NCBI GenBank assembly: GCA_027484915.1
Contig: JAIXSA010000111.1
Coordinates: 1 to 58,323, forward strand
Direction of reading: 5' to 3'
DNA length: 58,323 nucleotides
Origin: Paracoccaceae bacterium
GTDB lineage: Bacteria; Pseudomonadota; Alphaproteobacteria; Rhodobacterales; Rhodobacteraceae
In this document: positions 12,966 through 32,545 of the stretch, one piece after another
Position numbering within the stretch: the first letter of the stretch is position 1
How the letters are laid out: every line of letters begins with the position of its first letter
Made by a program: the position numbers and the translations under genes
The notes under the pieces: model-generated
Database searches by the model: none
Told to the model about the DNA's origin: nothing
What the model saw: only the letters and a program-made list of their open reading frames with translations

Positions 12966-12970
12966 CGACG

Positions 12971-13038
12971 CCTCCTCGTTCGACTGCGTCTACAGGTCGG
13001 TGATCCTGCGCAAGCAGTGACACAGTCATCGACGAGCC
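12971..13038. repeat. dispersed palindromic intergenic repeat, copy D
   Basis: About 68 bp between the convergent ends of trpE and the deacetylase gene, starting 5 bp after the trpE stop. It carries the conserved TGACACAGTCA core (TGAC-N3-GTCA) followed by TCGACGAGCC, plus CCTCCTCGTTCGACTGCGTC and GGTCGGTGATC, shared in part with copies A and C. It is the most diverged of the four. Confidence 0.72.
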
Positions 13039-13054
13039 GGGGCGTGGCAGCCCG

Positions 13055-14896: not shown

Positions 14897-15097
14897 TGCT
14901 GCCTCCGCCTTTACGCCGCTGCGACCGTTGCGGGGAAGCGCGGGCATCCCCTGTCGGATCGCCCGTTTTCCCGGCGCGGTCTTCTGACTGGCGGCACTAT
15001 AGCCCGCCCCATCGTGGGCTTCACGCGTTTTTCTGCAACTGCTCAACAAGTTGCCGCAACCGTGGCAGGCGGGCAATGCGGTCCGACAGGGGGGAGG

Positions 15098-16313: not shown

Positions 16314-16361
16314 CTGGCTATAGCGGCGGATTGGCTCTGGTCCTAAGCGAGCTGGGCCCTA
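16314..16361 (+). promoter_or_regulatory. putative TauR-binding box array upstream of tpa
   Basis: Three direct CTGG-type boxes: CTGGCTATAG at 16314, CTGGTCCTAA at 16337 and CTGGGCCCTA at 16352. The middle box is close to the CTGGACTTAA-type element I recall for TauR in Rhodobacter. The first-to-second spacing is 23 bp, exactly as in the xsc upstream region. They lie 56-103 bp before the tpa start, a suitable place for an activator. Confidence 0.6.
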
Positions 16362-16416: not shown

Positions 16417-17796
16417 ATGGAAGGCTTCGCAGGATTGAACGACATCGGGCAGGTGGTCGAGGCCGACCGCGCCCATGTCTGGCACCACCTCTCCCAGCAC
16501 AAGCAGTACGAAACCGTCGACCCCCGCGTCATTGTCGAAGGCAAGGGGATGCGGGTCTGGGATGCCAAGGGCAAGGAACACATCGATGCGGTGTCCGGCG
16601 GGGTCTGGACCGTCAACGTGGGCTACGGGCGCGAAAGCATCGCCAACGCCGTCCGCGACCAGCTGATCAAGCTGAACTATTTCGCCGGGGCCGCAGGCTC
16701 GATCCCCGGTTCGGTCTTCGCCAAGCGCCTGATCGAGAAGATGCCGGGGATGAGCCGCGTCTACTACTCGAACTCGGGGTCCGAGGCGAACGAGAAGGTC
16801 TACAAGATGGTGCGCCAGATCGCGCACCGGCACCACGGCGGCAAGAAGTGGAAGATCCTGTACCGCGACCGCGACTACCACGGCACGACCATCGCCGCTT
16901 TGGCGTCTGCGGGCCAGGACCAGCGCGCCATGCAGTACGGGCCCTTCCCCGACGGCTTTGTCCGCGTGCCGCATTGCCTGGAGTATCGCAAGCAGTGGGA
17001 CGTGGAAAACTACGGCGAGCGCGCCGCTGACGCCATCGAGGAAGTCATCCTGCGCGAAGGCCCCGACACCGTCGGCTGCCTGATCCTGGAGCCGGTGACG
17101 GCGGGCGGCGGCGTGATCGTCCCGCCCCAGGGCTACTGGGACCGCGTTCAGGAGATCTGCAAGAAGTACAACATCCTTCTGGCCATCGACGAGGTTGTCT
17201 GCGGCGTCGGCCGCACCGGGGTCTGGTTCGGCTACCAGCACTATGGGATCAAGCCGGACTTCGTGACGATGGCCAAGGGCGTCGCCTCGGGCTACGCCGC
17301 GATCAGCTGCACGGTGACGACGGAAGCCGTCTTCGAGATGTTCAAGGACGCCCCCACCGATCCGATGAGCTATTTCCGCGACATCTCGACCTTCGGGGGT
17401 TGCACCAGCGGCCCGGCGGCGGCGCTGGAGAACATGCGGATCATCGAGGATGAAGGTCTTCTCGCCAATACGCTGGCGATGGGCGACTACTGCCTTGGGA
17501 ACCTGTCGGCGCTGATGGACAAGCACAAGGTCATCGGCGACGTCCGCGGCAAGGGCCTGTTCCTCGGGGCCGAACTGGTGGCCGACCGTGCGACCAAGGA
17601 GCCGGTGGACGAGAAGAAGGTCCAGACCGTCGTCGCCGACTGCATGGCGCAGGGCGTGATCATCGGGGCGACGAACCGTTCGCTGCCGGGGCTGAACAAC
17701 ACGCTGTGCCTGAGCCCCGCGCTGATCGCGACGAAGGACGACATCGATGAGATCACCACGGCGATCGATGGCGCGCTGACCCGGGTGTTTGGGTAA
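16417..17796 (+). CDS. tpa: taurine--pyruvate aminotransferase
   Basis: 459 aa class III PLP aminotransferase that moves the amino group of taurine to pyruvate, giving sulfoacetaldehyde and alanine. It starts MEGFAGLNDIGQVVEADR with a conserved HVWHHLSQHKQYE. Other blocks: YYSNSGSEANEKVYKMVRQ, YRDRDYHGTTIAALASAGQ, ILEPVTAGGGVIVPPQGYW, AIDEVVCGVGRTGVWFGYQHY and VTMAKGVASGYAAIS with PLP lysine at residue 287. Length and motifs fit Tpa better than omega-aminotransferases in general, and xsc and tauR are nearby. CTGG-box elements precede it and a strong intrinsic terminator follows, so it is probably a single-gene transcript. Confidence 0.92.
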   Translation: MEGFAGLNDIGQVVEADRAHVWHHLSQHKQYETVDPRVIVEGKGMRVWDAKGKEHIDAVSGGVWTVNVGYGRESIANAVRDQLIKLNYFAGAAGSIPGSVFAKRLIEKMPGMSRVYYSNSGSEANEKVYKMVRQIAHRHHGGKKWKILYRDRDYHGTTIAALASAGQDQRAMQYGPFPDGFVRVPHCLEYRKQWDVENYGERAADAIEEVILREGPDTVGCLILEPVTAGGGVIVPPQGYWDRVQEICKKYNILLAIDEVVCGVGRTGVWFGYQHYGIKPDFVTMAKGVASGYAAISCTVTTEAVFEMFKDAPTDPMSYFRDISTFGGCTSGPAAALENMRIIEDEGLLANTLAMGDYCLGNLSALMDKHKVIGDVRGKGLFLGAELVADRATKEPVDEKKVQTVVADCMAQGVIIGATNRSLPGLNNTLCLSPALIATKDDIDEITTAIDGALTRVFG

Positions 17797-19968: not shown

Positions 19969-20085
19969 CGGGGCCTGTTGCATTCCCTCCGGCTCTGCCG
20001 CGGCGGGGTCGGCTTGGCCTTCGGCAAGGCCGCGCGGGCGCGCGCCCATCAGGCGTGGCCCGGGTTAGGCGACCCTGAGTCGAAG

Positions 20086-20100
20086 ATCAACTGAATTGAT
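20086..20100. promoter_or_regulatory. AT-rich inverted repeat between desaturase and tauR
   Basis: ATCAA-N5-TTGAT in the divergent intergenic region, embedded in otherwise GC-rich sequence and adjacent to ATACAAT, a possible -10 element for tauR. No CTGG box is seen here, so tauR autoregulation through the same boxes is not supported. Confidence 0.3.
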
Positions 20101-20200
20101 ACAATCTCAGGTCACGTCCTGGCGACGGCCGCCTGTCCGAGGCGCTTGACTCCGCCCCCGCTGGTGCCGCTTGATCCGCCCGATCCAAGCCCGTGGTGTC

Positions 20201-21655
20201 ATGGCCGCCATCCCCGTCGAAGCCTTCTACCTGACCCCCGGAGCTGCGGGATCGCTGCAGCAGCAGATCCGGGCGATGGTCACGCAAGGAATCCTTGCGG
20301 GGCGCTTCCGGCCCGGAAGCCGGATGCCCTCGTCCCGCGGGTTGGCTGAGCATCTTGGCGTCAGCCGGATCACCGTGACGCTGGCCTATGCCGACCTCGT
20401 GTCGTCGGATTACCTCACGTCGGCGGGGCGGTCAGGGTATTTCGTCTCGGACACAGCCCCACTTGCGCCCGAGTTTCCGCAACCCGAAGCCCGCGCCGAG
20501 GCCATTGACTTCAAGGGCTTGACTGGCGGCCGGTTCAGCCTGGTGCCGAAAGTCGAACGGCCCGAGGATTGGGATCGCTACCCCTATCCCTTCATCTACG
20601 GGCAGGCGGATCCGACGCTGTTCGACCACCAGAACTGGCGGCAATGCGCCCTGCGTGCCTTGGGGAAACGCGACTTCGCGGCGCTGACCACCGACTATTA
20701 CGAACGCGACGACCCGCTCTTGATCCAGGAGCTTCTGCGCACCATCCTTCCCCGCCGGGGCATTGCGGCGCGCGAGGATGAGGTACTGCTGACGATGGGG
20801 GCGCAGAACGCGCTGTGGATCGCAGCGACGGCACTTCTGGGGCCGGGACGCCGCGCTGTGGTGGAAAACCCCGGCTACCCGGCCTGGCGCGCCATCGTTG
20901 CCTCCACTGGCGCCACGGCGGTGCCCGTCGATGTCGACGCGCTTGGCTTGCCGGTACGGGGGCTTGCGGCGGACGTGGTCTTCACCACGCCCTCGCACCA
21001 GTGCCCGACCAACGCCACCATGCCGGTCGACCGCCGCGTGGCCCTTCTCGACGCCGCCGAAGCGGAGGGCTTCGTGATTATCGAGGACGACTACGAATTC
21101 GAGATGTCCTTCCTGAAGCCCGTCGCCCCGGCGCTGAAGTCCCTGGACCGGGGTGGCAGGGTGATCTACGCCGGGTCCTTCTCGAAGTCCGTCTTCCCGG
21201 GCTTGCGGCTTGGCTACCTCGTTGGCCCACCCGGTTTCATCGCCGAGGCGCGGGCGTTGCGCGGGTTGATGCTGAAGCACCCACCCGGCCATATCCAGCG
21301 GACGATGGCCTATTTCCTGGGCCTCGGGCACTACGACGCTCTCGTCAACCGGATGAAGAACGCCTTCCGCCGCCGCCGCCAGGTCATGGCCGAGGCGATT
21401 GCGGCCGAGGGACTGACCGTAGCGGGGCAGGGCGGCTTCGGCGGCTCCAGCTTCTGGATGCGCGCGCCTGACGGCGTGGACACCGAGGCTTTGGCGCTGC
21501 GCCTGCGGGCGGACGGCGTGCTGATCGAGCCGGGACGCGCGTTCTTTGCTGGCGAGGGGCCGCGGAATTACTATCGGCTGGCCTATTCCTCTATCGCGCC
21601 CCAGCGCATCGCCGAGGGCGTGGCGCGGATTGCTGCGGCGGTCGCTCGTCGATGA
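20201..21655 (+). CDS. tauR: MocR-type (GntR/aminotransferase) transcriptional regulator TauR
   Basis: 484 aa. A GntR winged helix (residues ~10-75; GSLQQQIRAMVTQGILAGRF, MPSSRGLAEHLGVSRITVTLAY) is fused to a fold-type I aminotransferase-like domain (~110-480; VENPGYPAW, IIEDDYEFEMSF, YAGSFSKSVFPGLRLGYLV, where the lysine binds PLP in the family). TauR proteins activate taurine genes when taurine is present. Adjacency to xsc and CTGG boxes before both xsc and tpa support the name. ATG at 20201 is preferred; an in-frame TTG at 20171 would add ten residues. The last four codons and stop lie inside a palindromic repeat copy. Confidence 0.87.
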   Translation: MAAIPVEAFYLTPGAAGSLQQQIRAMVTQGILAGRFRPGSRMPSSRGLAEHLGVSRITVTLAYADLVSSDYLTSAGRSGYFVSDTAPLAPEFPQPEARAEAIDFKGLTGGRFSLVPKVERPEDWDRYPYPFIYGQADPTLFDHQNWRQCALRALGKRDFAALTTDYYERDDPLLIQELLRTILPRRGIAAREDEVLLTMGAQNALWIAATALLGPGRRAVVENPGYPAWRAIVASTGATAVPVDVDALGLPVRGLAADVVFTTPSHQCPTNATMPVDRRVALLDAAEAEGFVIIEDDYEFEMSFLKPVAPALKSLDRGGRVIYAGSFSKSVFPGLRLGYLVGPPGFIAEARALRGLMLKHPPGHIQRTMAYFLGLGHYDALVNRMKNAFRRRRQVMAEAIAAEGLTVAGQGGFGGSSFWMRAPDGVDTEALALRLRADGVLIEPGRAFFAGEGPRNYYRLAYSSIAPQRIAEGVARIAAAVARR

Positions 21656-21702
21656 CTGCGTCACTCCTCGCACGCGACGAGAAGCCGAGGGCGCACGAGG
21701 AG
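21644..21702. repeat. dispersed palindromic intergenic repeat, copy B
   Basis: About 59 bp overlapping the end of tauR: it encodes the final Ala-Arg-Arg codons and supplies the TGA stop. It shares GCTCGTCGATGACT, the TGAC-N3-GTCA core and GACGAGAAGCCGA with copy C. It ends just before the first CTGG box upstream of xsc. Confidence 0.75.
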
Positions 21703-21708
21703 CCGCCT

Positions 21709-21785
21709 CTGGCCATACCGGGCCGACCCATCTGGCCCTAAGGCCTGTCTGGCCGTAGGGATAGGTTGCGTGCAACTGGCCTTAC
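21709..21785 (+). promoter_or_regulatory. putative TauR-binding box array upstream of xsc
   Basis: Four direct boxes fitting CTGGCCNTAN: CTGGCCATAC (21709), CTGGCCCTAA (21732), CTGGCCGTAG (21749) and CTGGCCTTAC (21776). Start-to-start spacings are 23, 17 and 27 bp. The first spacing equals that upstream of tpa. The last box lies about 28 bp from the xsc start codon. Confidence 0.65.
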
Positions 21786-21813
21786 GGGGCCGCATGGGAC
21801 ATGGAGACACGCG

Positions 21814-23589
21814 ATGAAGATGACGACCGAGGAAGCCTTCGTGAAGGTCCTGCAGATGCACGGGATCGAGCATGCCTTCGGGATCATCGGCTCGGCCTTC
21901 ATGCCGATCTCGGACCTTTTCCCCAAGGCCGGTATCCATTTCTGGGACTGCGCGCATGAAGGCTCGGGCGGGATGATGGCGGACGGGTTCACCCGGGCAT
22001 CGGGCAAGATGTGCATGATGATCGCCCAGAACGGCCCCGGCATCACCAACTTCGTCACCGCCGTGAAGACCGCCTACTGGAACCACACGCCCCTCCTGCT
22101 CGTCACCCCGCAGGCCGCGAACAAGACCATCGGGATGGGCGGCTTCCAGGAAGTGGAGCAGATGGCGCTCTTCAAGGACATGGTCTGCTACCAGGAGGAG
22201 GTCCGCGACCCTTCTCGTGTGGCCGAGGTCTTGAACCGCGTGATCTTGCAGGCGAAACGCCAGTCGGCTCCGGCGCAGATCAACATGCCGCGCGACTACT
22301 TCACCCAGGTGATCGACGTCCCCCTGCCAGCAGTCGTGGAGTTCGAACGGCCCTCGGGCGGTGAGGACGCCATCGCTCAGGCCGCGCAGCTTTTGTCCTC
22401 CGCGAAGTTCCCGGTGATCCTGAACGGCGCGGGCGTGGTGATTGGGGGGGCAATCCCGGCCTCGATGGCCTTGGCCGAACGCCTGACCGCCCCGGTCTGC
22501 GTCGGCTACCAGCACAACGACGCCTTCCCTGGAAGTCATCCGCTGTTCGCGGGGCCGCTTGGGTACAACGGGTCCAAGGCCGGGATGGAGCTGATCGCGC
22601 AGGCCGATGTGGTGCTGGCCCTGGGCACGCGGCTCAACCCGTTCTCGACCCTGCCAGGCTATGGGATCGACTATTGGCCGAAGGGGGCCAAGGTGATCCA
22701 GGTCGACATCAACCCCAACCGGATCGGTCTGACGAAGCCCGTGACGGTGGGGATCGTCGGCGATGCGAAGAAAGTGGCCGAAGGCATCCTTTCGCGCCTG
22801 TCTAAAGCCGCAGGCGATGCCGGGCGTGCCGAACGCAAGGCGCTGATCGCGCAGAAAAAGTCGGCCTGGGCGCAGGAACTGTCGTCCATGGACCACGAAC
22901 AGGACGATCCCGGCACCAGCTGGAACGAACGCGCCCGGGCGGCGAAGCCCGAGTGGATGTCGCCGCGCATGGCCTGGCGCGCGATCCAGTCGGCGCTGCC
23001 GAAAGAGGCGATCATCTCCTCCGACATCGGCAACAACTGCGCCATCGGCAACGCCTATCCGTCGTTTGAGGCGGGGCGGAAGTACCTTGCCCCCGGCCTG
23101 TTCGGCCCCTGCGGCTATGGTCTGCCCTCGATCATCGGCGCCAAGATCGCCTGCCCGGACACCCCCGTCGTGGGCTTCGCCGGCGACGGCGCCTTCGGAA
23201 TCGCGGTGACGGAACTGACCGCAATCGGCCGCAGCGAATGGCCCGCGATCACCATGGTCGTCTTCCGCAACTACCAGTGGGGGGCCGAAAAGCGGAACTC
23301 CACGCTGTGGTACGACGACAACTTCGTCGGCACCGAGCTGGATACGGATGTCAGCTACGCGGGCATCGCCAAGGCCTGCGGCCTTCAGGGTGTGCAGGCC
23401 CGGACGATGGAGGAGCTGACGGCCGCCCTCAACAAGGCCATCGACGACCAGATGCACCACGGCAAGACCACGCTGATCGAGGCGCTGATCAACCAGGAAC
23501 TGGGCGAGCCCTTCCGCCGCGACGCGATGAAGAAGCCGGTCGAGGTCGCAGGGATCTCCAAGGCGGACATGCGGCCGCAGGTCGTCTGA
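21814..23589 (+). CDS. xsc: sulfoacetaldehyde acetyltransferase
   Basis: 591 aa thiamine-diphosphate enzyme that cleaves sulfoacetaldehyde with phosphate to acetyl phosphate and sulfite. It opens MKMTTEEAFVKVLQMHGIEHAFGIIGSAF, the standard Xsc start; then HEGSGGMMADGFTRASGK, NGPGITNFVTAVKTAYWNHTPLLLV, SDIGNNCAIGNAYPSF and the ThDP motif GDGAFGIAVTELTAIGRSEWP...FRNYQW. The specific sequence around FRNYQWGAEKRNSTLWY separates Xsc from acetolactate synthases. It is the first gene of a six-gene run in which every stop overlaps the next start; the stop here overlaps the exporter gene as TGATG. CTGG boxes upstream imply taurine induction through TauR. Confidence 0.95.
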   Translation: MKMTTEEAFVKVLQMHGIEHAFGIIGSAFMPISDLFPKAGIHFWDCAHEGSGGMMADGFTRASGKMCMMIAQNGPGITNFVTAVKTAYWNHTPLLLVTPQAANKTIGMGGFQEVEQMALFKDMVCYQEEVRDPSRVAEVLNRVILQAKRQSAPAQINMPRDYFTQVIDVPLPAVVEFERPSGGEDAIAQAAQLLSSAKFPVILNGAGVVIGGAIPASMALAERLTAPVCVGYQHNDAFPGSHPLFAGPLGYNGSKAGMELIAQADVVLALGTRLNPFSTLPGYGIDYWPKGAKVIQVDINPNRIGLTKPVTVGIVGDAKKVAEGILSRLSKAAGDAGRAERKALIAQKKSAWAQELSSMDHEQDDPGTSWNERARAAKPEWMSPRMAWRAIQSALPKEAIISSDIGNNCAIGNAYPSFEAGRKYLAPGLFGPCGYGLPSIIGAKIACPDTPVVGFAGDGAFGIAVTELTAIGRSEWPAITMVVFRNYQWGAEKRNSTLWYDDNFVGTELDTDVSYAGIAKACGLQGVQARTMEELTAALNKAIDDQMHHGKTTLIEALINQELGEPFRRDAMKKPVEVAGISKADMRPQVV

Positions 23590-24329
23590 TGCCTTTTGAC
23601 CTTGGCCCCGGCGCGCTGGCCTGGCTCGCCGTGGCCTGCCTCGTTGCCGGGTTCGTTCGGGGCTATTCCGGCTTTGGCTTCTCGGCGCTGCTGATCGCGG
23701 CGTCTTCATTAGTGACCAATCCGCTGAATTTCGTCGCGGTTGTCGTCATTCTGGAAACGGTAATGTCCCTGCAAGCCGCCAAAGGCGCAGGTCCTGACGT
23801 GGACTGGCGGCGGGTCGGCTGGCTGTTGGGTGGGGCGGCAATCGGCCTGCCGCTGGGCCTATGGATCCTGACCGGCGTCAGCGAGGACACCGCGCGGGCG
23901 GTGGTTTCGGGCTACGTCCTCCTAATGTGCGCCGTGCTGCTGGCGGGCTGGAGGCTCGCAGCCGAAGTGAAGGGCGCGCCGAACGGCATCGCGGGGATCA
24001 TCTCCGGCCTCGCCAACGCGCCCGGCATGGGGGGCCTGCCGGTCGCGGCCTTCTTCGCGGCGCAACCGATGCCCGCCGCCGTCTTCCGCGCCACCCTGAT
24101 CGCCTATTTCCCGCTCCTCGACCTCTACTCCGCGCCGCTTTACTGGCTGGCGGGCCTCGTCACCTGGGACACGCTCTGGGCCGCCCTCATTGCGCTGCCG
24201 TTGACGCTTCTGGGCAACTGGTTCGGCGGGCGACACTTTTTCGGCACCGACCCGCAGGAGTTCCGCCGCTTTGCCATCGTCCTTCTCGCCACACTCGCCG
24301 CCTTGGGGCTGGGAAAGGCGCTGATCTGA
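23589..24329 (+). CDS. TSUP/TauE-SafE family sulfite exporter (TauZ-like)
   Basis: 246 aa, about eight membrane helices. The opening ACLVAGFVRGYSGFGFSALLIAASSLV (Gly-x-Gly-Phe-Gly element) and the half-repeat IAGIISGLANAPGMGGLPVAAFFAAQ mark the TSUP family. Its position directly between xsc and an acetate kinase gene matches the TauZ/TauE proteins proposed to export sulfite released from taurine. ATG overlaps the xsc stop and its stop overlaps the ackA start, so all three are translationally coupled. Because soeABC for sulfite oxidation follow in the same operon, the cell seems to have both removal routes. Confidence 0.85.
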   Translation: MPFDLGPGALAWLAVACLVAGFVRGYSGFGFSALLIAASSLVTNPLNFVAVVVILETVMSLQAAKGAGPDVDWRRVGWLLGGAAIGLPLGLWILTGVSEDTARAVVSGYVLLMCAVLLAGWRLAAEVKGAPNGIAGIISGLANAPGMGGLPVAAFFAAQPMPAAVFRATLIAYFPLLDLYSAPLYWLAGLVTWDTLWAALIALPLTLLGNWFGGRHFFGTDPQEFRRFAIVLLATLAALGLGKALI

Positions 24330-25429
24330 TGTGGCTGATTGTGAATGCAGGTTCGTCTTCGCTGAAGCTGAAGGTCTTCGACGGCGAACAGGAGGTCGCA
24401 AAGGCCAGCATCACCGAGATCGGCCCCGACGGGCACCGCGCCGCGATGGCCGAAGGCCTGGCGCAGGCCGGGGTACCGTTGGACCGTCTGACTGCCGCTG
24501 CGCATCGGGTGGTGCATGGCGGGGCGGGGCTGACGTCGACTTGCCGCGTGACGCCTTCGGTGCTGCAGCAGATCCAGGACTGCATTCCGCTCGCGCCTTT
24601 GCACAACCCGGCGAATCTGGTGGGAATTCAGTCGGTTGCAGCCCTTGCGTCCAACCTGCCGCAATATGCCGCCTTCGACACCGCTTTCCATGCGACGAAC
24701 CCGCAGGTGGCGGTGACCTACGCCCTGCCGAAGGAAGAACGCGACCGGGGCCTGCGCCGCTATGGCTTCCATGGGATCAGCTATGCCGCGCTGGTCCGCA
24801 TTCTGCAGCGGCGCGGTGACTTGCCGGAACGCCTCCTCGCCTGCCATCTGGGCAATGGCTGCTCCATCGCCGCGATTGTGAATGGCCGCTCGGTTGCGAC
24901 AACGATGGGCTATTCGCCGCTCGACGGCCTCACCATGGGCACTCGCTCTGGCAGCATCGATGGCAACGCGGTCCTTCGGCTTGCCGAACTGCATGGCATC
25001 GAAAAAGCTGGCCGCATACTCAACTGCGAAAGCGGCCTTCTGGGCCTTGGCGGCCACAGCGACCTCCGCGCGCTGCATGCGGCGGGCACGCCCGAGGCCC
25101 GCTTTGCGCTGGATCATTTCGCCTATTGGGCCGTCCGCCACGCCGGAAGCCTGGTCGCCACGATGGGCGGCCTCGACGCCGTTGTCTTCACCGGCGGCAT
25201 CGGCGAGAACGATCCCTGGATGCGGAAGGAAATCCTGTCAGGACTGGCTTACTTGGGAGTATCTCCCGACCTTGCCGCCAATGCGCGGAACGAAACCACC
25301 CTGCATGATACGACATCCCGTGTCGTTATCCTTGTTGTGCCCGCCGACGAGGAGCGTCAGATTGCCCTTGAGGCGCAGGCCGTCATGTCTGGCGAGGCGC
25401 AGGCCCTAAAGGCCGGGGAGGGCGCGTGA
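24329..25429 (+). CDS. ackA: acetate kinase
   Basis: 366 aa ASKHA-fold kinase converting acetyl phosphate and ADP to acetate and ATP. Seen: VNAGSSSLKLKVF (N-terminal phosphate loop), AAHRVVHGG, FDTAFHATNP, RRYGFHGISYAAL (acetate kinase signature), HLGNGCSIAAIVNGRSVATTMGYSPLDGLTMGTRSGSID, and VVFTGGIGEN. It is slightly shorter than typical (~395-400 aa). Taurine operons usually carry phosphotransacetylase (pta) to make acetyl-CoA; here the acetyl phosphate made by Xsc would instead yield ATP directly. Both ends overlap neighbours (TGATG with the exporter, GTGA with soeA). Confidence 0.93.
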   Translation: MWLIVNAGSSSLKLKVFDGEQEVAKASITEIGPDGHRAAMAEGLAQAGVPLDRLTAAAHRVVHGGAGLTSTCRVTPSVLQQIQDCIPLAPLHNPANLVGIQSVAALASNLPQYAAFDTAFHATNPQVAVTYALPKEERDRGLRRYGFHGISYAALVRILQRRGDLPERLLACHLGNGCSIAAIVNGRSVATTMGYSPLDGLTMGTRSGSIDGNAVLRLAELHGIEKAGRILNCESGLLGLGGHSDLRALHAAGTPEARFALDHFAYWAVRHAGSLVATMGGLDAVVFTGGIGENDPWMRKEILSGLAYLGVSPDLAANARNETTLHDTTSRVVILVVPADEERQIALEAQAVMSGEAQALKAGEGA

Positions 25430-28281
25430 ACCAGCCAAGGGTCGAGACGCAACGCGAGGTCGGCGACGAGGTCCGCCAGACCACCTGCTACATGTGCGCC
25501 TGCCGCTGCGGGATCAACGTGCACCTGAAGTCCGCAAAGGTGGCCTACATCGAGGGCAACCGGGACCATCCGATCAACAAGGGCGTCCTTTGTGCCAAGG
25601 GGGCCAGCGGGATCATGCAGGTCACCGCACCCTCGCGTCTGAAAGCGCCGTTGCGGCGGGTGGGCCCGCGCGGGTCGGGGGCCTTCGAGGAGATTTCCTG
25701 GGAGGAGGCCCTTTCGACGGCCGTTGCCTGGATGAAGCCCCTGCGTGAGACTGCGCCCGAGAAGCTCGCCTTCTTCACGGGCCGCGACCAAAGCCAAAGC
25801 CTCACCGGCTGGTGGGCGCAGAACTTCGGAACACCGAACTATGCGGCGCACGGCGGCTTCTGCTCGGTGAACATGGCGGCGGGGGGTATTTACACCATCG
25901 GTGGGGCCTTCTGGGAATTCGGCCAGCCGGATTGGGATCGCACAAAGCTGTTCGTGATGTTCGGCGTGGCCGAGGACCACGATTCCAACCCGATCAAGAT
26001 CGGTCTGGGCAAGCTGAAGGCGCGCGGCGCACGGGTCATCAGCGTAAACCCGGTCAGGACCGGGTATTCCGCGGTGGCCGACGACTGGATCGGCATCACT
26101 CCCGGCACGGACGGCCTTCTTATCCTGTCTTTGATCCATTGCCTTCTGGAGGCAGGGAAGATCGACCTCGATTACCTTGCCCAATGGACCAATGCGCCCT
26201 TGCTGATCAATGAGGCCGAAGGGGCCGAGAAGGGCCTTTTCGTGAGGAACGCCGAAAGCCAACCCTTCGTGATCGACCAGACCAGCGGCCACCCAGCGCC
26301 GTGGGACGGGAAGGGCGTGCAGCCCGATCTTGGGGCCGAATGGCAGGGCAACCGCACCGTCTTTCGCCACATGGTCGAGGAATACCTCAAGCCTGACTAC
26401 GCACCCGAGGCCGTGGCTTCCCGCTGCGGCGTGACGGCGACCCGTATCCGCCAACTTGCCGCCGAATTGGCCGACGTGGCCTTCAACCACGCCATCACCC
26501 TCGACCGTCCCTGGACCGACTTCCGTGGCAACGAGCACCCCAACATGCCCGGCCGTCCGGTCAGCTTCCACGCGATGCGCGGGATTTCCGCTCATTCCAA
26601 CGGCTTCCAGACCGCCCGCGCGCTGCATCTCCTCCAGATCCTGCTTGGGTCCTTGGAGACACCCGGCGGCTACCGCCTGAAACCGCCGTACCCTAAGCCC
26701 ATTGAGGCGCACCCGACGCCCCACTTCGTTACCACCCCCGGCAAGCCCCTGACCGGCCCCCACCTTGGCTACGTCCGCTCCCCGGACGACCTGTGCCTTC
26801 TGCCCGATGGCAGCCCGGCCCGGATCGACAAGGGTTTCAGCTGGGAAAACCCGTTTTCGGCGCATGGGATGATGCACATGGTCATCCCCAACGCCCATGC
26901 CGGGGACCCCTACAAGATCGATACGCTCTTCCTTTACATGGCCAACATGTCCTGGAACTCCAGCATGAACTCCGCCCGCGTGATGGAGATGCTGACCGAA
27001 CAGAAGGACGGGGAATATGTGATCCCCCGGATCATCTATTCGGACGCCTATGCGTCAGAGATGGTCGCCTATGCCGACCTGATCCTGCCCGACACGACCT
27101 ACCTTGAACGCCACGACTGCATCAGCCTGCTCGACCGGCCCATCAGCGAACCCGATGCGGCGGGCGACGCGATCCGCTGGCCGGTGCTGGAACCTGACCG
27201 GGACGTTCGCTGCTTCCAGTCGGTCCTCCTGGAGTTGGGCGCAAGGCTCGGCCTGCCGGGGATGGTGAACGAGGACGGAACGGCGAAGTTCAAGGACTAC
27301 GCCGACTACATCGTAAACCACCAGCGCCGTCCGGGCGTCGGGCCGCTGATGGGCTTCCGGGGGAATGGCGAGGCGGAAGGCCGGGGCGCGCCGAACCCCG
27401 AACAGATGCACCGCTACATCGAGAACGGGGCTTTCTATCAGGCGCATGTCCCCGAAGAAGCCGCCTTCTACAAACCTTGGAACGCGGCCTATCAGGACTG
27501 GGCGGTGAAGCTGGGCCTCTACGAGACCCCGCAGCCCTACCTCTTCAACATCTGGTCCGAACCCATGCGCCGCTTCCAGTTGGCGGCTGAGGGTTTCGGC
27601 CCCCGCCAGCCTCCCGACCACCTGCGCGCGCGTCTGAAACAGGCGATGCACCCTCTGCCGATCTGGTACGCCCCCTTCGGCGACGAGGACGCGGCCTTCG
27701 GCTACTCGGTCCACGCCCTGACCCAACGCCCGATGGACATGTACCATAGCTGGGGCAGCCAGAACACCTGGCTGCGGCAGATCAAGGGGCACAACTATCT
27801 GTACCTCCCCACAAAAATCTGGGAAGGGCAGGCGTTTGCCGAAGGCGACTGGGCGCGTGTCTCCTCCCGCGCGGGAACCATCGTTGTACCTGTGGCCCAC
27901 ATGGCCGCGCTGAACGAGAACACCGTCTGGACTTGGAACGCCATCGGCAAGCGCAAAGGAGCCTGGGCCTTGGATGCGGATGCGCCGGAGGCCACGACGG
28001 GGTTCCTGCTGAACCACCTGATCTCAGAGCTTTTGCCGGACCGCGATGGGGTGCGCCTGTCGAACTCCGACCCCATCACCGGCCAGGCCGCCTGGTTTGA
28101 CCAGCGGGTGCGGGTGGAGCGTGTCGCCGCCGAAGACCACCCGCGCGGCACCGTGGAACCGCTGTTCGAGCGCATTCCCGACCCCCCGCGCGCCGATGGC
28201 GGCCGGGGCCAGAATTCTTCGAAGAATTTTGCCAAAAGTTTTCGAAAACTCTTGGTCCCCGATGGGGAGACGTCGCGATGA
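25426..28281 (+). CDS. soeA: sulfite dehydrogenase molybdopterin subunit SoeA
   Basis: 951 aa molybdopterin-guanine-dinucleotide oxidoreductase of the DMSO-reductase family. [4Fe-4S] ligands C21-x2-C24-x3-C28 and C56 (GVLCAKG) are present. No twin-arginine signal precedes them, so the enzyme stays in the cytoplasm, as described for SoeABC and unlike periplasmic SorAB. Other blocks: FFTGRDQSQSLTGWWAQNFGTPNYAAHGGFCSVN, LFVMFGVAEDHDSNPIKIGLGKLKARGARVISVNP, and the C-terminal MPT-binding domain beginning near RPMDMYHSWGSQNTWLRQIKGHNYL. GTG start overlapping ackA (GTGA). The last ~25 residues are encoded by two AT-rich palindromes and look like an added tail. Confidence 0.9.
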   Translation: MNQPRVETQREVGDEVRQTTCYMCACRCGINVHLKSAKVAYIEGNRDHPINKGVLCAKGASGIMQVTAPSRLKAPLRRVGPRGSGAFEEISWEEALSTAVAWMKPLRETAPEKLAFFTGRDQSQSLTGWWAQNFGTPNYAAHGGFCSVNMAAGGIYTIGGAFWEFGQPDWDRTKLFVMFGVAEDHDSNPIKIGLGKLKARGARVISVNPVRTGYSAVADDWIGITPGTDGLLILSLIHCLLEAGKIDLDYLAQWTNAPLLINEAEGAEKGLFVRNAESQPFVIDQTSGHPAPWDGKGVQPDLGAEWQGNRTVFRHMVEEYLKPDYAPEAVASRCGVTATRIRQLAAELADVAFNHAITLDRPWTDFRGNEHPNMPGRPVSFHAMRGISAHSNGFQTARALHLLQILLGSLETPGGYRLKPPYPKPIEAHPTPHFVTTPGKPLTGPHLGYVRSPDDLCLLPDGSPARIDKGFSWENPFSAHGMMHMVIPNAHAGDPYKIDTLFLYMANMSWNSSMNSARVMEMLTEQKDGEYVIPRIIYSDAYASEMVAYADLILPDTTYLERHDCISLLDRPISEPDAAGDAIRWPVLEPDRDVRCFQSVLLELGARLGLPGMVNEDGTAKFKDYADYIVNHQRRPGVGPLMGFRGNGEAEGRGAPNPEQMHRYIENGAFYQAHVPEEAAFYKPWNAAYQDWAVKLGLYETPQPYLFNIWSEPMRRFQLAAEGFGPRQPPDHLRARLKQAMHPLPIWYAPFGDEDAAFGYSVHALTQRPMDMYHSWGSQNTWLRQIKGHNYLYLPTKIWEGQAFAEGDWARVSSRAGTIVVPVAHMAALNENTVWTWNAIGKRKGAWALDADAPEATTGFLLNHLISELLPDRDGVRLSNSDPITGQAAWFDQRVRVERVAAEDHPRGTVEPLFERIPDPPRADGGRGQNSSKNFAKSFRKLLVPDGETSR
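28213..28255. repeat. paired AT-rich palindromes inside the soeA 3' end
   Basis: AATTCTTCGAAGAATT (16-bp perfect palindrome, 28213-28228) and AGTTTTCGAAAACT (14-bp perfect, 28237-28250). The latter extends to a near-perfect 24-bp palindrome bounded by CCAA/TTGG. They encode the SoeA tail containing SSKNFAKSFRKLL and stand out sharply from the GC-rich surroundings. Confidence 0.8.
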
Positions 28282-29006
28282 CCGCCCTGCCGCAGTCCAC
28301 GGAAAAGAAACTTGGCCTGGTGATCGACCTCGACACCTGCGTCGGCTGTCAGGCTTGTGTCACCGCCTGCAAGGGCTGGAACGATGGCGGCATCGGCCTG
28401 TCGGATCAGGACCCATATGGCGCCGACCCGTCGGGCACTTTCCTGAACCGCGTCCATTCCTACCAAGTCGCCATCCCCGACGCGCCCGCCCAGGTCGTGA
28501 CGTTCCCGCGCTCCTGCCTGCACTGCGACAACGCCCCTTGCGTCACCGTCTGCCCCACGGGGGCCAGCTACAAGCGGGCCGAGGACGGGATCGTACTGGT
28601 GAACGAAGACGCCTGCATCGGCTGCGGCCTTTGCGCCTGGGCCTGCCCCTACGGCGCGCGTGAGATGGACGCGGATCAGGGTGTGATGAAGAAATGCACC
28701 CTCTGTGTCGACCGGATCTATAACGAAACGCTGCCCGAGGAAGACCGCGAGCCCGCCTGCGTGAGAACCTGCCCCACGAACGCCCGCCATTTCGGCGACC
28801 TTGCCGACCCCGACAGCGCCGTCTCGCAACTGGTGGCGAGCCGAGGCGGCTATGACCTGATGCCCGACATGGGGACGAGGCCCACCAACAAGTACCTCCC
28901 GCCGCGCAAAAAGGGGCCGGGGACGGCCAGCCCGCTGGCACCCCTGCTGGACATCAAGGCCAGCGGGATTGCCGGATGGCTTGACCGGATGCTGGGGAAG
29001 ATCTGA
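28278..29006 (+). CDS. soeB: sulfite dehydrogenase iron-sulfur subunit SoeB
   Basis: 242 aa DmsB/NrfC-like electron-transfer subunit with cysteines for four [4Fe-4S] clusters: CVGCQACVTAC, CLHCDNAPCVTVCPTGA, CIGCGLCAWACPYGA, and CTLCVDRIYN...ACVRTCPTNA. It would pass electrons from the SoeA molybdenum centre to the membrane subunit. ATG overlaps the soeA stop (ATGA), and its stop overlaps the soeC start (TGATG). No export signal, consistent with a cytoplasmic-facing complex. Confidence 0.92.
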   Translation: MTALPQSTEKKLGLVIDLDTCVGCQACVTACKGWNDGGIGLSDQDPYGADPSGTFLNRVHSYQVAIPDAPAQVVTFPRSCLHCDNAPCVTVCPTGASYKRAEDGIVLVNEDACIGCGLCAWACPYGAREMDADQGVMKKCTLCVDRIYNETLPEEDREPACVRTCPTNARHFGDLADPDSAVSQLVASRGGYDLMPDMGTRPTNKYLPPRKKGPGTASPLAPLLDIKASGIAGWLDRMLGKI

Positions 29007-29878
29007 TGCACCCGGCGGCTTCGGTCATCCTGTTCTCCACCCTCTCGGGTCTGGGTTTTGGCTTCCTGGCCTTCCTTGGCTGGGGGGCGCTTGCCCCCTC
29101 GGGTTGGGTCGCATTCTTCCTCTGGGCCTTGGGCTACGGACTGGCAGTGGCGGGCCTCCTCGCCTCGACCTTCCACCTTGGGAACCCGAAGAACGCCCTG
29201 AAGGCATTCACCCAGTGGCGCACAAGCTGGCTTAGCCGCGAAGCATGGGCGTCCGTCGTCACGCTGGTCCTGCTGGCTCCGGTCGCCCTGTCGGACATCT
29301 TCGGTCTGGTCCTGCCGCGCGTCATAGGTCAGGTCGGTGGTACATTGGCCCTGCTGACGGTCTTCACCACGGCGATGATCTATACGCAGATAAAGGCGGT
29401 GCCGCGCTGGCACCACTGGCTGACGCCGGTGATGTTCCTGAGCTTCGCGCTGGCCGGGGGCGCGATGCTGTCCGGCCGCGTCGTGGCACCGGTCCTGCTG
29501 GTGGCCGTGGGGGCGGTGTTGTGGGCGGTATGGCGGGTGGGGGACGGCGCCTTTGCCCGCGCCGGGCAGACGATGGGCACGGCCACGGGCCTGGACCGGC
29601 TGGGCGTGCCCTCGGTCCTCGACCCCGCGCACACGGCTGGGAACTACCTCAAACGCGAGATGATCTTCGTCGTCGGGCGGAAACACGCGGCCAAACTGCG
29701 GAAGATTGCGCTGGTCCTCGCCTCCATTGCCCCGGCGCTGGTCCTGCTTTTCCAGCTCGGCGTCTGGGGCATCGCGCTGGCGGCTGTCCTGCACCTTGCC
29801 GGAGCGCTTGCCGCACGCTGGCTCTTCTTCGCGGAAGCCGAGCATGTCGTGGGGCTTTACTACGGCGCGCGGGGATGA
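29006..29878 (+). CDS. soeC: sulfite dehydrogenase membrane anchor SoeC (DmsC-like)
   Basis: 290 aa, about eight transmembrane helices. DmsC-family features are the early LGFGFLAFLGW helix, ASTFHLGNPKNALKAFTQWRTSWLSREAW (~residues 49-77) and ALVLLFQLGVWGIALAAVLHLAGALAARWLFFAEAEHVVGLYYG at the end. It anchors SoeAB and hands electrons to quinone, linking sulfite oxidation to respiration. Last of six overlapping genes; a phosphomannomutase gene follows 13 bp downstream on the same strand and may be read through. Confidence 0.9.
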   Translation: MHPAASVILFSTLSGLGFGFLAFLGWGALAPSGWVAFFLWALGYGLAVAGLLASTFHLGNPKNALKAFTQWRTSWLSREAWASVVTLVLLAPVALSDIFGLVLPRVIGQVGGTLALLTVFTTAMIYTQIKAVPRWHHWLTPVMFLSFALAGGAMLSGRVVAPVLLVAVGAVLWAVWRVGDGAFARAGQTMGTATGLDRLGVPSVLDPAHTAGNYLKREMIFVVGRKHAAKLRKIALVLASIAPALVLLFQLGVWGIALAAVLHLAGALAARWLFFAEAEHVVGLYYGARG

Positions 29879-29891
29879 TCCTTTCACGCGC

Positions 29892-31244
29892 ATGAGCGCG
29901 TTCAAGACCTATGACATCCGCGGCCGTCTAGGAACGGACCTGACCGAAGCCATCGCCCACCGGATCGCCCGGGCCTTTGCCACGGTGACTGGCGCGGACG
30001 CGGTGGTGATGGCGCGCGACTGCCGGGAAAGCTCGCCGTCGCTGGCCGATGCAGTGGCGGCGGGGCTGGTGGCCCAGGGCGTCCGGGTCCTTGACCTTGG
30101 GCTGGCCGGCACCGAGGAGATGTATTTCGCCACGGCGCATCTGGGGGCAGGCGGCGGGATCTGCGTCACCGCCTCGCACAATCCGCGTGAATACAACGGG
30201 ATGAAGCTGGTCGGGCGCGGGGCGGTCCCGTTGCCTGACGCCGATTTCGTCCGGATCAGGGCGCTTGCCGAAAGCGACGCAGCCTTCGCCACTGCGCCGG
30301 GTGGGGTCCGGGAGGACCGCTCAGGCGTCCGTGCGGACTATGTCGCGCATGTGACCGGGCTGGTGGGGCAGGGGATCGGTCCGCTGCGTCTGGTGGTCAA
30401 CGCCGGGAACGGTGCCGCCGGCCCGACGCTTGACGCCTTGGCGGAAGGGCTGGCCCGACATGGGGCGCGGCTTGACCTTGTCCGGATGCATCACGACCCG
30501 GACGGCTCTTTCCCGAACGGCATCCCGAACCCGCTTCTGCCCGAGAATCGCCCAGTGACGGCCGACGCGGTCAGGGCGGCGCAGGCTGATTTCGGCGTTG
30601 CCTTCGACGGGGATTTCGACCGCTGTTTCCTGTTTGACGGCGAGGGCGGCTTTGTCGACGGCGAGCATGTCGTGGCGCTGCTCGCGGCGGCACATCTTGC
30701 GGGTGAACCCGGCGCCACGATCATCCATGACCCAAGGGTGATCTGGGCCGTGCAGGACACGGTCCGGCGGGGCGGCGGCCGGGCGGTGCTTGCCCCCACA
30801 GGCCACGTGTTCCTCAAGTCCGCGATGCGCCGCGAAGGCGCGGTCTACGGCGGCGAGATGAGCGCGCATCACTATTTCCGCGGCTTCATGGCCTGCGACT
30901 CGGGGATGCTGCCCTGGCTGATGGTGGCCCGGCTTGTCAGCCAGTCCGGCCGCAGCCTGACCGAGATGGTCGGCGCGTTGCGGCGCGACTTTCCTTCTTC
31001 AGGCGAGATCAACTTCCGCGTCGCCAACCTGCCATCGGTCGTCGCCCGCGTCGAGGCAACCCTTGCGCCGCTGGCGCGGGCGATCGACCGCACCGACGGG
31101 CTTAGCCTGGACTTCGGGGACTGGCGGATGAACCTGCGCGCTTCGAACACCGAACCGCTTCTACGGCTGAACGTCGAGGCGAGGGGGGACGCGGGCCTGG
31201 TGGCCGACGGCGTGGCCCGCGTCACGGGCTTGATCGACGGCTGA
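29892..31244 (+). CDS. phosphomannomutase/phosphoglucomutase
   Basis: 450 aa alpha-D-phosphohexomutase. All four signature loops are visible: TASHNP with phospho-serine at residue 95, the metal loop DGDFDR, the sugar loop GGEMSAHHYF, and the phosphate loop SNTEPLLRLN. It interconverts mannose-6-phosphate and mannose-1-phosphate (and probably the glucose forms), feeding GDP-mannose or surface-sugar synthesis. Start ATG giving MSAFKTYDIRG; TYDIRG is typical. It follows soeC closely but is metabolically unrelated; its end is 5 bp from a convergent small gene. Confidence 0.92.
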   Translation: MSAFKTYDIRGRLGTDLTEAIAHRIARAFATVTGADAVVMARDCRESSPSLADAVAAGLVAQGVRVLDLGLAGTEEMYFATAHLGAGGGICVTASHNPREYNGMKLVGRGAVPLPDADFVRIRALAESDAAFATAPGGVREDRSGVRADYVAHVTGLVGQGIGPLRLVVNAGNGAAGPTLDALAEGLARHGARLDLVRMHHDPDGSFPNGIPNPLLPENRPVTADAVRAAQADFGVAFDGDFDRCFLFDGEGGFVDGEHVVALLAAAHLAGEPGATIIHDPRVIWAVQDTVRRGGGRAVLAPTGHVFLKSAMRREGAVYGGEMSAHHYFRGFMACDSGMLPWLMVARLVSQSGRSLTEMVGALRRDFPSSGEINFRVANLPSVVARVEATLAPLARAIDRTDGLSLDFGDWRMNLRASNTEPLLRLNVEARGDAGLVADGVARVTGLIDG

Positions 31245-31249
31245 CCCCG

Positions 31250-31432
31250 TCAGGCCGAGGCGGCGGTGGTGGCGGGCGTGCGCAGCAGCGGCCAGCCACG
31301 GCGGAACACGGGGATCGTCGGCAGGTTGTCTGCCAGGGCCTGCAGACGGCTTTCTCGTTGCTGCAGGCGGGCAATCTCGGCCCGGATATCGGCGAGTTCG
31401 TCAGTTAGGGTAAGGCGGGAAGCGGCCATCAT
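31250..31432 (-). CDS. small hypothetical protein, probable coiled coil
   Basis: 60 aa. A helical, charged N-terminal half (TDELADIRAEIARLQQRESRLQAL) with heptad-like spacing is followed by a short FRRGWPLLRTP tail. The tandem ATG-ATG start is preceded by AGGAGG at good distance, strong evidence of translation. A longer reading to 31660 runs antisense into the neighbouring gene and is rejected. No family recognised. Divergent from the membrane protein gene and convergent with the phosphomannomutase gene. Confidence 0.65.
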   Translation of the reverse strand: MMAASRLTLTDELADIRAEIARLQQRESRLQALADNLPTIPVFRRGWPLLRTPATTAASA

Positions 31433-31579
31433 GGTCCTCCTTTGTTCTGTTCGGTCAGCATCGACTCGATTCCTGAAGACTTTGCTAAGTGCCAGAACGA
31501 AAGCAGATTGTTTCTGACTCGACGGATTGTCTTGCCCGTCGCCAAGGCGCACCCTTGCTTGGCTTGCAAGGTGGGAGCC

Positions 31580-32545
31580 ATGTGGGAGTTCAGCATTTTC
31601 AGGGCTCTGGGTCTGATGATCCGGACCTGGCCCTTCGTCCTGTTGCGTGCAGCGGTTCAACTGGTGATCGCTGCAGTGCTTGTCTCTGTCGCATGGGCTG
31701 GGGCCCTGGCCGGCATGGTGCTGACCGGCCCTTCGGGTGGGCCTTTCGGATCATCCGGCGCACTTTGGGGGGGCGCGGCGGGGGTGCTACTTGGGGCGCT
31801 TGTCCTTGCTGCCCTGCGCGGGCGGATCATGCATCTGGTCACCGCCCCGCATCTTGCCGCCCTGGTCGAGGCGTTGGACCGCCGGCCCTTGCCCTTCGGC
31901 ATCAGCCAGGTGGCGGTGGCCCGGCAAATCGTCGGTGACCGTTTCGGGCCCCCTGCGGAACTGGCAGCCCTGAACCGGCTGGTGCGCGGGGTGATCCGCA
32001 CGGCAACCGGCCTCGTCGACGGCCTATTGGTCGATATCCTGCCGATCCGTGTTCTGGACCGGCTGGCGCGGGCGACCGGGTCCCAATTGCGGCTTTCGCT
32101 GGGCCTTCTCGATGCCGTCGTCCTGGCCCATGCCACCCGGACGCGATCGGAAAACGCCTGGGAGGCGGCGCATGACGGGCTGGTGCTCTACACCCAGAAT
32201 GCGCGGCCGATGATGTCCCACGCGGTCTGGCTGGCGCTGGTGAGCTGGCTGCTGGCGGGCTTCGTTGCGATCTTTGCGCTGACCCCTGCAGCGAACCTCG
32301 TGGCGCTAATCTCTGCGCTACCGGGCAGCCAGTTGCTTGTGGCGGCGGTCTTTGGCTGGGCGGTCAAGGCTGCGGTCTTCGATCCGTTCGCCCTGGCCTG
32401 CATGCTGCAGCTTCATCTGCGCCTGACCCAAGATCAGGACCCCCTCCCTGAATGGCGCGGTCGTCTGACCCAGGTTTCGGACAAGTTCCGCCAACTGGGC
32501 GAACGCGCGCTCGGCTGGCGCGCACGGGTCGTCCAGGACGCCTGA
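31580..32545 (+). CDS. conserved hypothetical membrane protein
   Basis: 321 aa with about four to five hydrophobic segments: two near the N-terminus (VLLRAAVQLVIAAVLVSVAWAGALAGMVL and GAAGVLLGALVLAAL) and two near the C-terminus (AVWLALVSWLLAGFVAIFAL and SQLLVAAVFGWAVKAAVF). A ~120-residue soluble loop lies between them. The start MWEFSIFRALG follows GGGAG. I do not recognise a characterised family; the overall look is that of uncharacterised Rhodobacterales membrane proteins. The last ~60 residues are cytoplasm-like and charged. It precedes pcm by 114 bp. Confidence 0.7.
   Translation: MWEFSIFRALGLMIRTWPFVLLRAAVQLVIAAVLVSVAWAGALAGMVLTGPSGGPFGSSGALWGGAAGVLLGALVLAALRGRIMHLVTAPHLAALVEALDRRPLPFGISQVAVARQIVGDRFGPPAELAALNRLVRGVIRTATGLVDGLLVDILPIRVLDRLARATGSQLRLSLGLLDAVVLAHATRTRSENAWEAAHDGLVLYTQNARPMMSHAVWLALVSWLLAGFVAIFALTPAANLVALISALPGSQLLVAAVFGWAVKAAVFDPFALACMLQLHLRLTQDQDPLPEWRGRLTQVSDKFRQLGERALGWRARVVQDA

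Follow-up and report, generated by a model that had tools for sequence, protein, structure and literature searches.

When taurine is broken down by way of sulfoacetaldehyde, what becomes of the acetyl phosphate and sulfite that are released? The question is raised by a stretch of 58,323 nucleotides (nt) from a Paracoccaceae bacterium (contig JAIXSA010000111.1 of assembly GCA_027484915.1; the whole stretch is called the window here), where the gene for sulfoacetaldehyde acetyltransferase (xsc) is followed by genes for a TauE/SafE-family exporter (tauZ), an acetate kinase (ackA) and a predicted sulfite dehydrogenase (soeABC). At the level of their families, the reactions catalysed by Tpa, Xsc, AckA and SoeABC are well established. 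We read the locus, with considerable confidence, as an operon under TauR control by which a Tabrizicola-like bacterium dissimilates taurine, with its own dedicated AckA, SoeABC and TauZ, and with acetate as an intermediate. Tpa would convert taurine to sulfoacetaldehyde, from which Xsc and phosphate would give acetyl phosphate and sulfite; the dedicated AckA would run towards acetate and ATP, consuming acetyl phosphate and ADP; SoeABC would oxidize sulfite at the cytoplasmic face and pass the electrons to quinone; and TauZ would export the product anion, sulfate being likelier than sulfite. As no separate phosphotransacetylase (Pta) was found, the pathway probably has to pass through free acetate, which Acs would reactivate and the ethylmalonyl-CoA pathway assimilate. 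The preliminary description of this DNA had proposed an operon with AckA in place of Pta and a Soe complex, which our analysis supports, and acetate as the end product, which it does not.

Gene packing and TauR-like boxes at the xsc locus

The six genes from xsc to soeC (21814-29878, forward strand) overlap at all five junctions, with offsets of -1, -1, -4, -4 and -1 nt. Both the overlaps and the places of the six genes agree with the preliminary description, and scans bear out, at family level, the names that it had given them. For comparison we took the best 80 of at least 591 confirmed xsc loci (numbered with L). With the relatives' gene starts assigned by script to the nearest start codon, the junctions were -1, -1, -4, -4, then +1 and 0 in L002 and L003, and -4, -1, -4, -4 and 0 in L036 and L043; one 36-nt gap was present in L034, and one or more gaps in L006, L020, L021, L064 and L073. 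As identical or almost identical junctions are seen again in L002, L003, L034, L036 and L043, packing by chance is unlikely, and full packing appears most developed in the Tabrizicola/Pseudotabrizicola group. The overlaps, together with an array of TauR-like boxes 5' of xsc and the lack of any exact box inside the operon from xsc to soeC, make it likely that these genes form one transcription unit, as had been suggested. A promoter scan of 20050-31600 is uninformative on this point, as it returned no sigma-70-like site (1.2 expected) even 5' of xsc.

The published TauR consensus is CTGGACYTAA, arranged in direct repeats (PMC5320631). Its relaxed form, CTGGMCNTA, has eight matches in the window (1.11 expected), including four 5' of xsc (Table 1), where boxes at -105 and -82 form a 23-nt pair and two further boxes are added. 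At least one forward box lay within 250 nt 5' of xsc in 60 of 81 loci (the 80 related loci and the window) and none in the other 21; reverse-strand boxes were absent from the same interval in all 81, at a background of 0.0135 per 250 nt per strand. Successive boxes 5' of xsc were spaced by 23 nt in 30 of 33 cases. With gaps between 3 and 33 nt allowed, exact box pairs occurred across the genome only at the xsc array and at a single site on contig 118, which we take for a coding repeat; a control pattern gave one match in the same search.

A second pair of TauR-like boxes, 23 nt apart and with one mismatch each, precedes tpa, the mismatch limit having been chosen after the strict boxes had been seen. 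Pairs of this kind were absent from 20 first-order Markov control draws, and the real window holds two at a spacing of 23 nt, one each at 17, 20, 27 and 33 nt and none at any further spacing between 12 and 39 nt. The pair would tie tpa to the same regulon as xsc despite an intervening gene on the opposite strand. Neither box group, nor a phosphomannomutase-like gene after soeC, was mentioned in the preliminary description. A MocR-type regulator gene lies directly 5' of xsc in the window and adjoins xsc in many related loci, and direct repeats like CTGGACYTAA lie upstream of xsc; we propose that TauR controls the operon through these predicted boxes.

AckA and Pta in the source genome and in related genomes

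Is a Pta encoded elsewhere in the same genome? The draft assembly (3.84 Mb, 173 contigs, 95.24% complete) contains only one PTA_PTB match, a piece of 270 amino acids (aa) that is cut off by the end of its contig; as malic enzyme it scores 245.9 bits, against 105.9 as Pta. An N-terminal part of a malic enzyme is likewise cut off at the end of a different contig. A hidden dedicated Pta was therefore rejected, the only PTA domain found being the end of a malic enzyme. The xsc-linked AckA is the only acetate kinase match. Within the draft assembly, AckA thus replaces Pta at the level of the genome, which answers the search for a separate pta that the preliminary description had suggested. It is very unlikely that the C-terminal PTA domain of the malic enzyme MaeB converts acetyl phosphate to acetyl-CoA while AckA only buffers acetyl phosphate: such a domain is indeed present, but it scores as malic enzyme, PTA domains of malic enzymes are generally regulatory, the operon carries AckA and no PTA, and xsc-linked AckAs form a clade of their own.

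To place this arrangement among its relatives, we sorted the 80 loci by same-strand genes, counting ackA as linked when it had the orientation of xsc and lay no more than 3.5 kb away. By this measure 40 loci have ackA, and 12 have pta without ackA after hand correction (L051 and L054 were moved to this class, as their Pta match overlaps the xsc end; the Pta matches of L057 and of L054, which is cut by the locus end, are short). In seven loci that lack a same-strand ackA or pta, a Pta-like gene is encoded on the other strand (L019, L022, L038, L046, L049, L053 and L063). An operon special to the source genome was thus rejected. The preliminary description had taken pta to be present in most taurine clusters, a hint of rarity that did not hold, and the survey of ackA-containing xsc operons that it had suggested shows the arrangement to be common and its AckAs to group together.

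Whole-genome searches covered 50 genomes picked from the 80 loci (numbered with G), for which completeness was not given, so that genes may be missing in drafts. We called a Pta dedicated at 200 bits or more to TIGR00651, a line of our own choice below the curated cut-off of 311.2. No dedicated Pta was found in any of 25 genomes whose xsc locus has AckA but lacks a Pta-like gene (25 of 27 such loci). Among genomes with a Pta locus, all eight have a Pta over the cut-off, which is a consequence of selection; independently of selection, six of the eight lack an acetate kinase match anywhere. A second acetate kinase match was found in 6 of the 25 AckA-locus genomes (G004, where it is weak, G010, G014, G021, G022 and G023). 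Malic-enzyme-sized frames scored about 115-185 bits in nearly all AckA-locus genomes, and 15 of the 25 hold an extra PTA-domain match, scoring 45-76 bits, in a frame that is 356-658 aa long. We think that these frames encode enoyl-CoA hydratase/phosphotransacylase fusions, and some phosphotransacylase activity is possible there. The window's own genome has none of these extra matches.

Against a strict either/or of AckA and Pta speak 10 of the 40 ackA loci, which have a Pta-like gene nearby on the opposite strand (L008, L013, L027-L031, L033, L050 and L078). In L013 it lies between ackA and soeA (12965-14977) and adjoins a citrate/2-methylcitrate synthase gene, scoring 232.2 bits as the phosphotransacetylase PRK09653 and 216.1 as Pta, both below the cut-offs; the four searched genomes of this class (G037-G040) gave 202-226 bits. 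These genes are a possible exception to the published AckA/Pta exclusion, which concerns regulon membership. Three further ackA loci of the 40 have a weak Pta-like reading frame on the same strand directly before ackA (L004, 9543-10487; L010, 5021-5959; and L024), which could encode a phosphotransbutyrylase-like partner. In L004 and L010 this frame has 312-314 aa and is about 26% identical to xsc-linked Pta. In the 10 genomes without a same-strand ackA or pta at the locus, a Pta over the cut-off was found elsewhere in three (G041, G048 and G050) and an unlinked acetate kinase in eight. Unlinked acetate kinases often adjoin a weak PTA-domain match (G010, G014, G022, G023, G039, G042-G045, G047 and G049), as if the two formed a separate phosphotransacylase-kinase pair. 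On a tree of Xsc, the 53 loci labelled as ackA or pta, hand corrections included, require at least six changes between the two, with 28 of 78 inner branches open and with the 10 opposite-strand and three weak same-strand Pta-like loci counted as ackA. The swap of ackA and pta thus seems to have been repeated several times.

The xsc-linked AckA clade and the fate of acetate

When 60 acetate kinases were placed on a tree, 40 of the 41 xsc-linked sequences fell on one side of a single branch (SH-aLRT 99.9, stem 0.68), and the other side (n = 20) held 19 unlinked sequences and the xsc-linked exception L068. The unlinked sequences are a sample (18 of 19 came from the genome searches, together with L065), the tree is a quick one, and the long row L102 lowers trust in it. 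The window's AckA has residues that align with N7, R91, H123, D148, H180, H208, R241 and E384 of the M. thermophila acetate kinase, which we take to have catalytic roles; the same eight are present in all 41 xsc-linked AckAs, and K14 in 40 of them. The window's AckA (366 aa) is about 30 residues shorter than the solved archaeal enzyme in the segment that separates the N-terminal motif from HRVVHGG. In its closest relatives the Pfam acetate kinase match likewise begins late, at positions 77-82 (L002, L003 and L034). AckA also misses the cut-off of the NCBIfam model TIGR00016 by 2 bits (291.4 versus 293.4). Its PF00871 score and the conserved residues identify it as an acetate kinase, with acetate kinase activity predicted.

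If acetate is formed, is it kept or released? The genome encodes Acs on contig 173 (1008 bits; AcsA cut-off 724.95) and a crotonyl-CoA carboxylase/reductase, Ccr (616.1 bits), and Acs was over the cut-off in 25 of 26 genomes scanned, G014 having a partial match of 593.7 bits. A gene beside maeB was considered as Acs and rejected at 606.8 bits, below that cut-off; it is probably another acyl-CoA ligase. Formation of acetyl-CoA by AckA together with acetate-CoA ligase has been proposed before (PMC5320631). As Acs and Ccr are both present and this route is in print, acetate as the end product, claimed in the preliminary description, is unsupported and was rejected as a shown product; acetate is probably reactivated. 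Excretion of acetate, with the operon run for one ATP from AckA and the electrons of sulfite and with taurine as an energy source, seems unlikely to us. AckA does give ATP directly, the draft holds no dedicated Pta and a Soe-type complex lies in the same operon, but Acs and Ccr would permit assimilation and the published proposal leads to acetyl-CoA. Compared with Pta, the AckA-Acs route costs about one ATP more per acetyl-CoA, whereas excretion gains one; both may occur.

Probable sulfite oxidation, known relatives and biological meaning

As a SoeABC sulfite dehydrogenase we take a molybdopterin subunit with a 4Fe-4S site, a ferredoxin-type subunit and a membrane anchor, encoded in the order A-B-C, and this layout is present here. 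By eye only, the N-terminus of SoeA shows no twin-arginine signal. The three genes have bisC_fam, HybA and DmsC matches, and in our reading they correspond by family to the bisC/dmsC/hybA genes of the 2016 TauR regulon study (PMC5320631). Soe-type oxidation of sulfite to sulfate is likely from the family domains, the gene order and the annotation in Ruegeria pomeroyi, which favours the link from sulfite to respiration proposed in the preliminary description. The same study suggested BisC/HybA/DmsC as the electron acceptor of the taurine dehydrogenase TauXY, a role that we consider highly improbable for the window's complex: in R. pomeroyi, SPO3557-3559, which neighbour SPO3560 and tauR (SPO3562), carry the annotation soeCBA, sulfite dehydrogenase, and the window has tpa with its box pair (tauXY was not searched for in the genome). 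As PMC5320631 places TauZ after sulfite oxidation, TauZ may carry sulfate, which is more likely than sulfite. Of the exporter and oxidase that had been paired in one unit, both genes stand, and the label of sulfite exporter is the less likely one; a tauZ-like gene and soeA occur together in 23 of the 80 related loci (counted by eye).

Several observations weigh against our reading of the locus. The name TauR rests on gene position: among the best 25 of 69 NCBIfam matches, PdxR is the only model over its cut-off (328.7 bits; cut-off 320) and no TauR model appears. Before tauR itself, no box was found with up to one mismatch. The best match in the genome to a TauA-like taurine ABC binding protein stays under the cut-off (293.2 versus 304.25), so that no taurine transporter was assigned, and no 23-nt box pair lies around its gene (16,000 of 18,134 bases read). 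The scan of 20050-31600 gave 12 terminator-like sites against 7.6 expected (s.d. 2.8), 6 of the 12 on the forward strand; those inside the operon on that strand (23657, 23689 and 25305) were treated as noise and count weakly against one transcription unit. The closest solved relative of SoeA is, over partial coverage, a thiosulfate reductase. Finally, the completeness of the draft could leave room for a missed Pta.

Table 1. Features of the taurine locus in the window (boxes: pattern CTGGMCNTA)
Feature	Position	Strand	Identity and basis
tpa	16417..17796	+	probable taurine:pyruvate aminotransferase, class III; Pfam Aminotran_3
tauR	20171..21655	+	MocR-type regulator; TTG start 20171 or in-frame ATG 20201; GntR and aminotransferase class I/II domains
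xsc	21814..23589	+	sulfoacetaldehyde acetyltransferase; TIGR03457 939.5 bits, cut-off 676.4
tauZ	23589..24329	+	TauE/SafE-family anion exporter, sulfite or sulfate; PF01925 (TauE) 76.9 bits, cut-off 32.6
ackA	24329..25429	+	acetate kinase, 366 aa, xsc-linked clade; PF00871 (Acetate_kinase) 294.7 bits, cut-off 22
soeA	25426..28281	+	molybdopterin catalytic subunit, GTG start; Molybdopterin and Molybdop_Fe4S4 domains
soeB	28278..29006	+	4Fe-4S dicluster subunit; family scans
soeC	29006..29878	+	DmsC-type membrane anchor; DmsC 47.5 bits, cut-off 22.3
phosphomannomutase-like gene	29892..31244	+	family match, scanned inside a longer ORF
four TauR-like boxes	21709..21784 (21709, 21732, 21749, 21776)	+	5' of xsc
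TauR-like box pair	16314..16345 (16314, 16337)	+	one mismatch each; 103 and 80 nt 5' of tpa

Around the operon, tpa matches lie 5' of xsc in many of the 80 related loci; for the window's tpa, no NCBIfam model exceeds its cut-off among the best 25 of 69 matches. The gene between tpa and tauR on the opposite strand is desaturase-like. NCBIfam has no model for TauZ or SoeC. The phosphomannomutase-like gene starts 13 nt 3' of soeC and has no evident pathway role; its counterparts were matched only in L002, L003 and L034 (some of the 80 loci end early), and co-transcription with the taurine genes is possible.

The operon type is already known in related bacteria. Suvorova and Rodionov (2016) list ackA, tauZ and bisC/dmsC/hybA in Rhodobacterales TauR regulons, which, like the window, combine tauR, tpa, xsc, ackA or pta, tauZ and bisC/dmsC/hybA, and they describe AckA and Pta as alternatives that never occur together in a TauR regulon (PMC5320631). 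Unlike here, the three oxidoreductase genes are assigned there to TauXY, and the name soe does not occur. To that study we add the genome-level exclusion of AckA and Pta and the AckA clade, with the reservation that ackA loci with an opposite-strand pta-like gene exist. In R. pomeroyi DSS-3, soeCBA and tauR likewise surround xsc (SPO3561), and a transcriptome shows xsc and SPO3560 both raised (PMC4334477, PMC9870897); SPO3560 is annotated as pta, whereas the window has ackA. Rubellimicrobium mesophilum shares xsc with the window, and for it both acetyl phosphate routes have been discussed, acetate kinase being named for ATP generation; it differs in having phosphotransacetylase and acetate kinase, both near xsc by locus tag (PMC4149006). 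Among the open-licence literature matches listed, no report describes an xsc-linked AckA clade or a genome-wide absence of Pta. What we add are the box arrays, the genome-wide AckA/Pta pattern and the AckA clade.

In water and in animals, taurine and other sulfonates commonly serve as currencies of carbon and sulfur, and whether their carbon passes through free acetate, which can be shared with neighbours, depends on the enzyme that consumes acetyl phosphate. The evidence seems to us evenly poised on whether Paracoccaceae and their kin have a distinct acetate kinase subfamily dedicated to the sulfonate pathway; where the locus lacks pta, the genome would then lack a dedicated phosphotransacetylase, so that the two carbons of taurine would have to pass through free acetate by AckA and then Acs. 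If so, the cell would on balance spend about one ATP more on each acetyl-CoA than it would with Pta, and in return may gain control over acetyl phosphate, ATP on demand or release of acetate at carbon excess. The genome-wide pattern and the single xsc-linked AckA clade argue against acetate as an end product, and they would allow the acetate route to be predicted from sequence.

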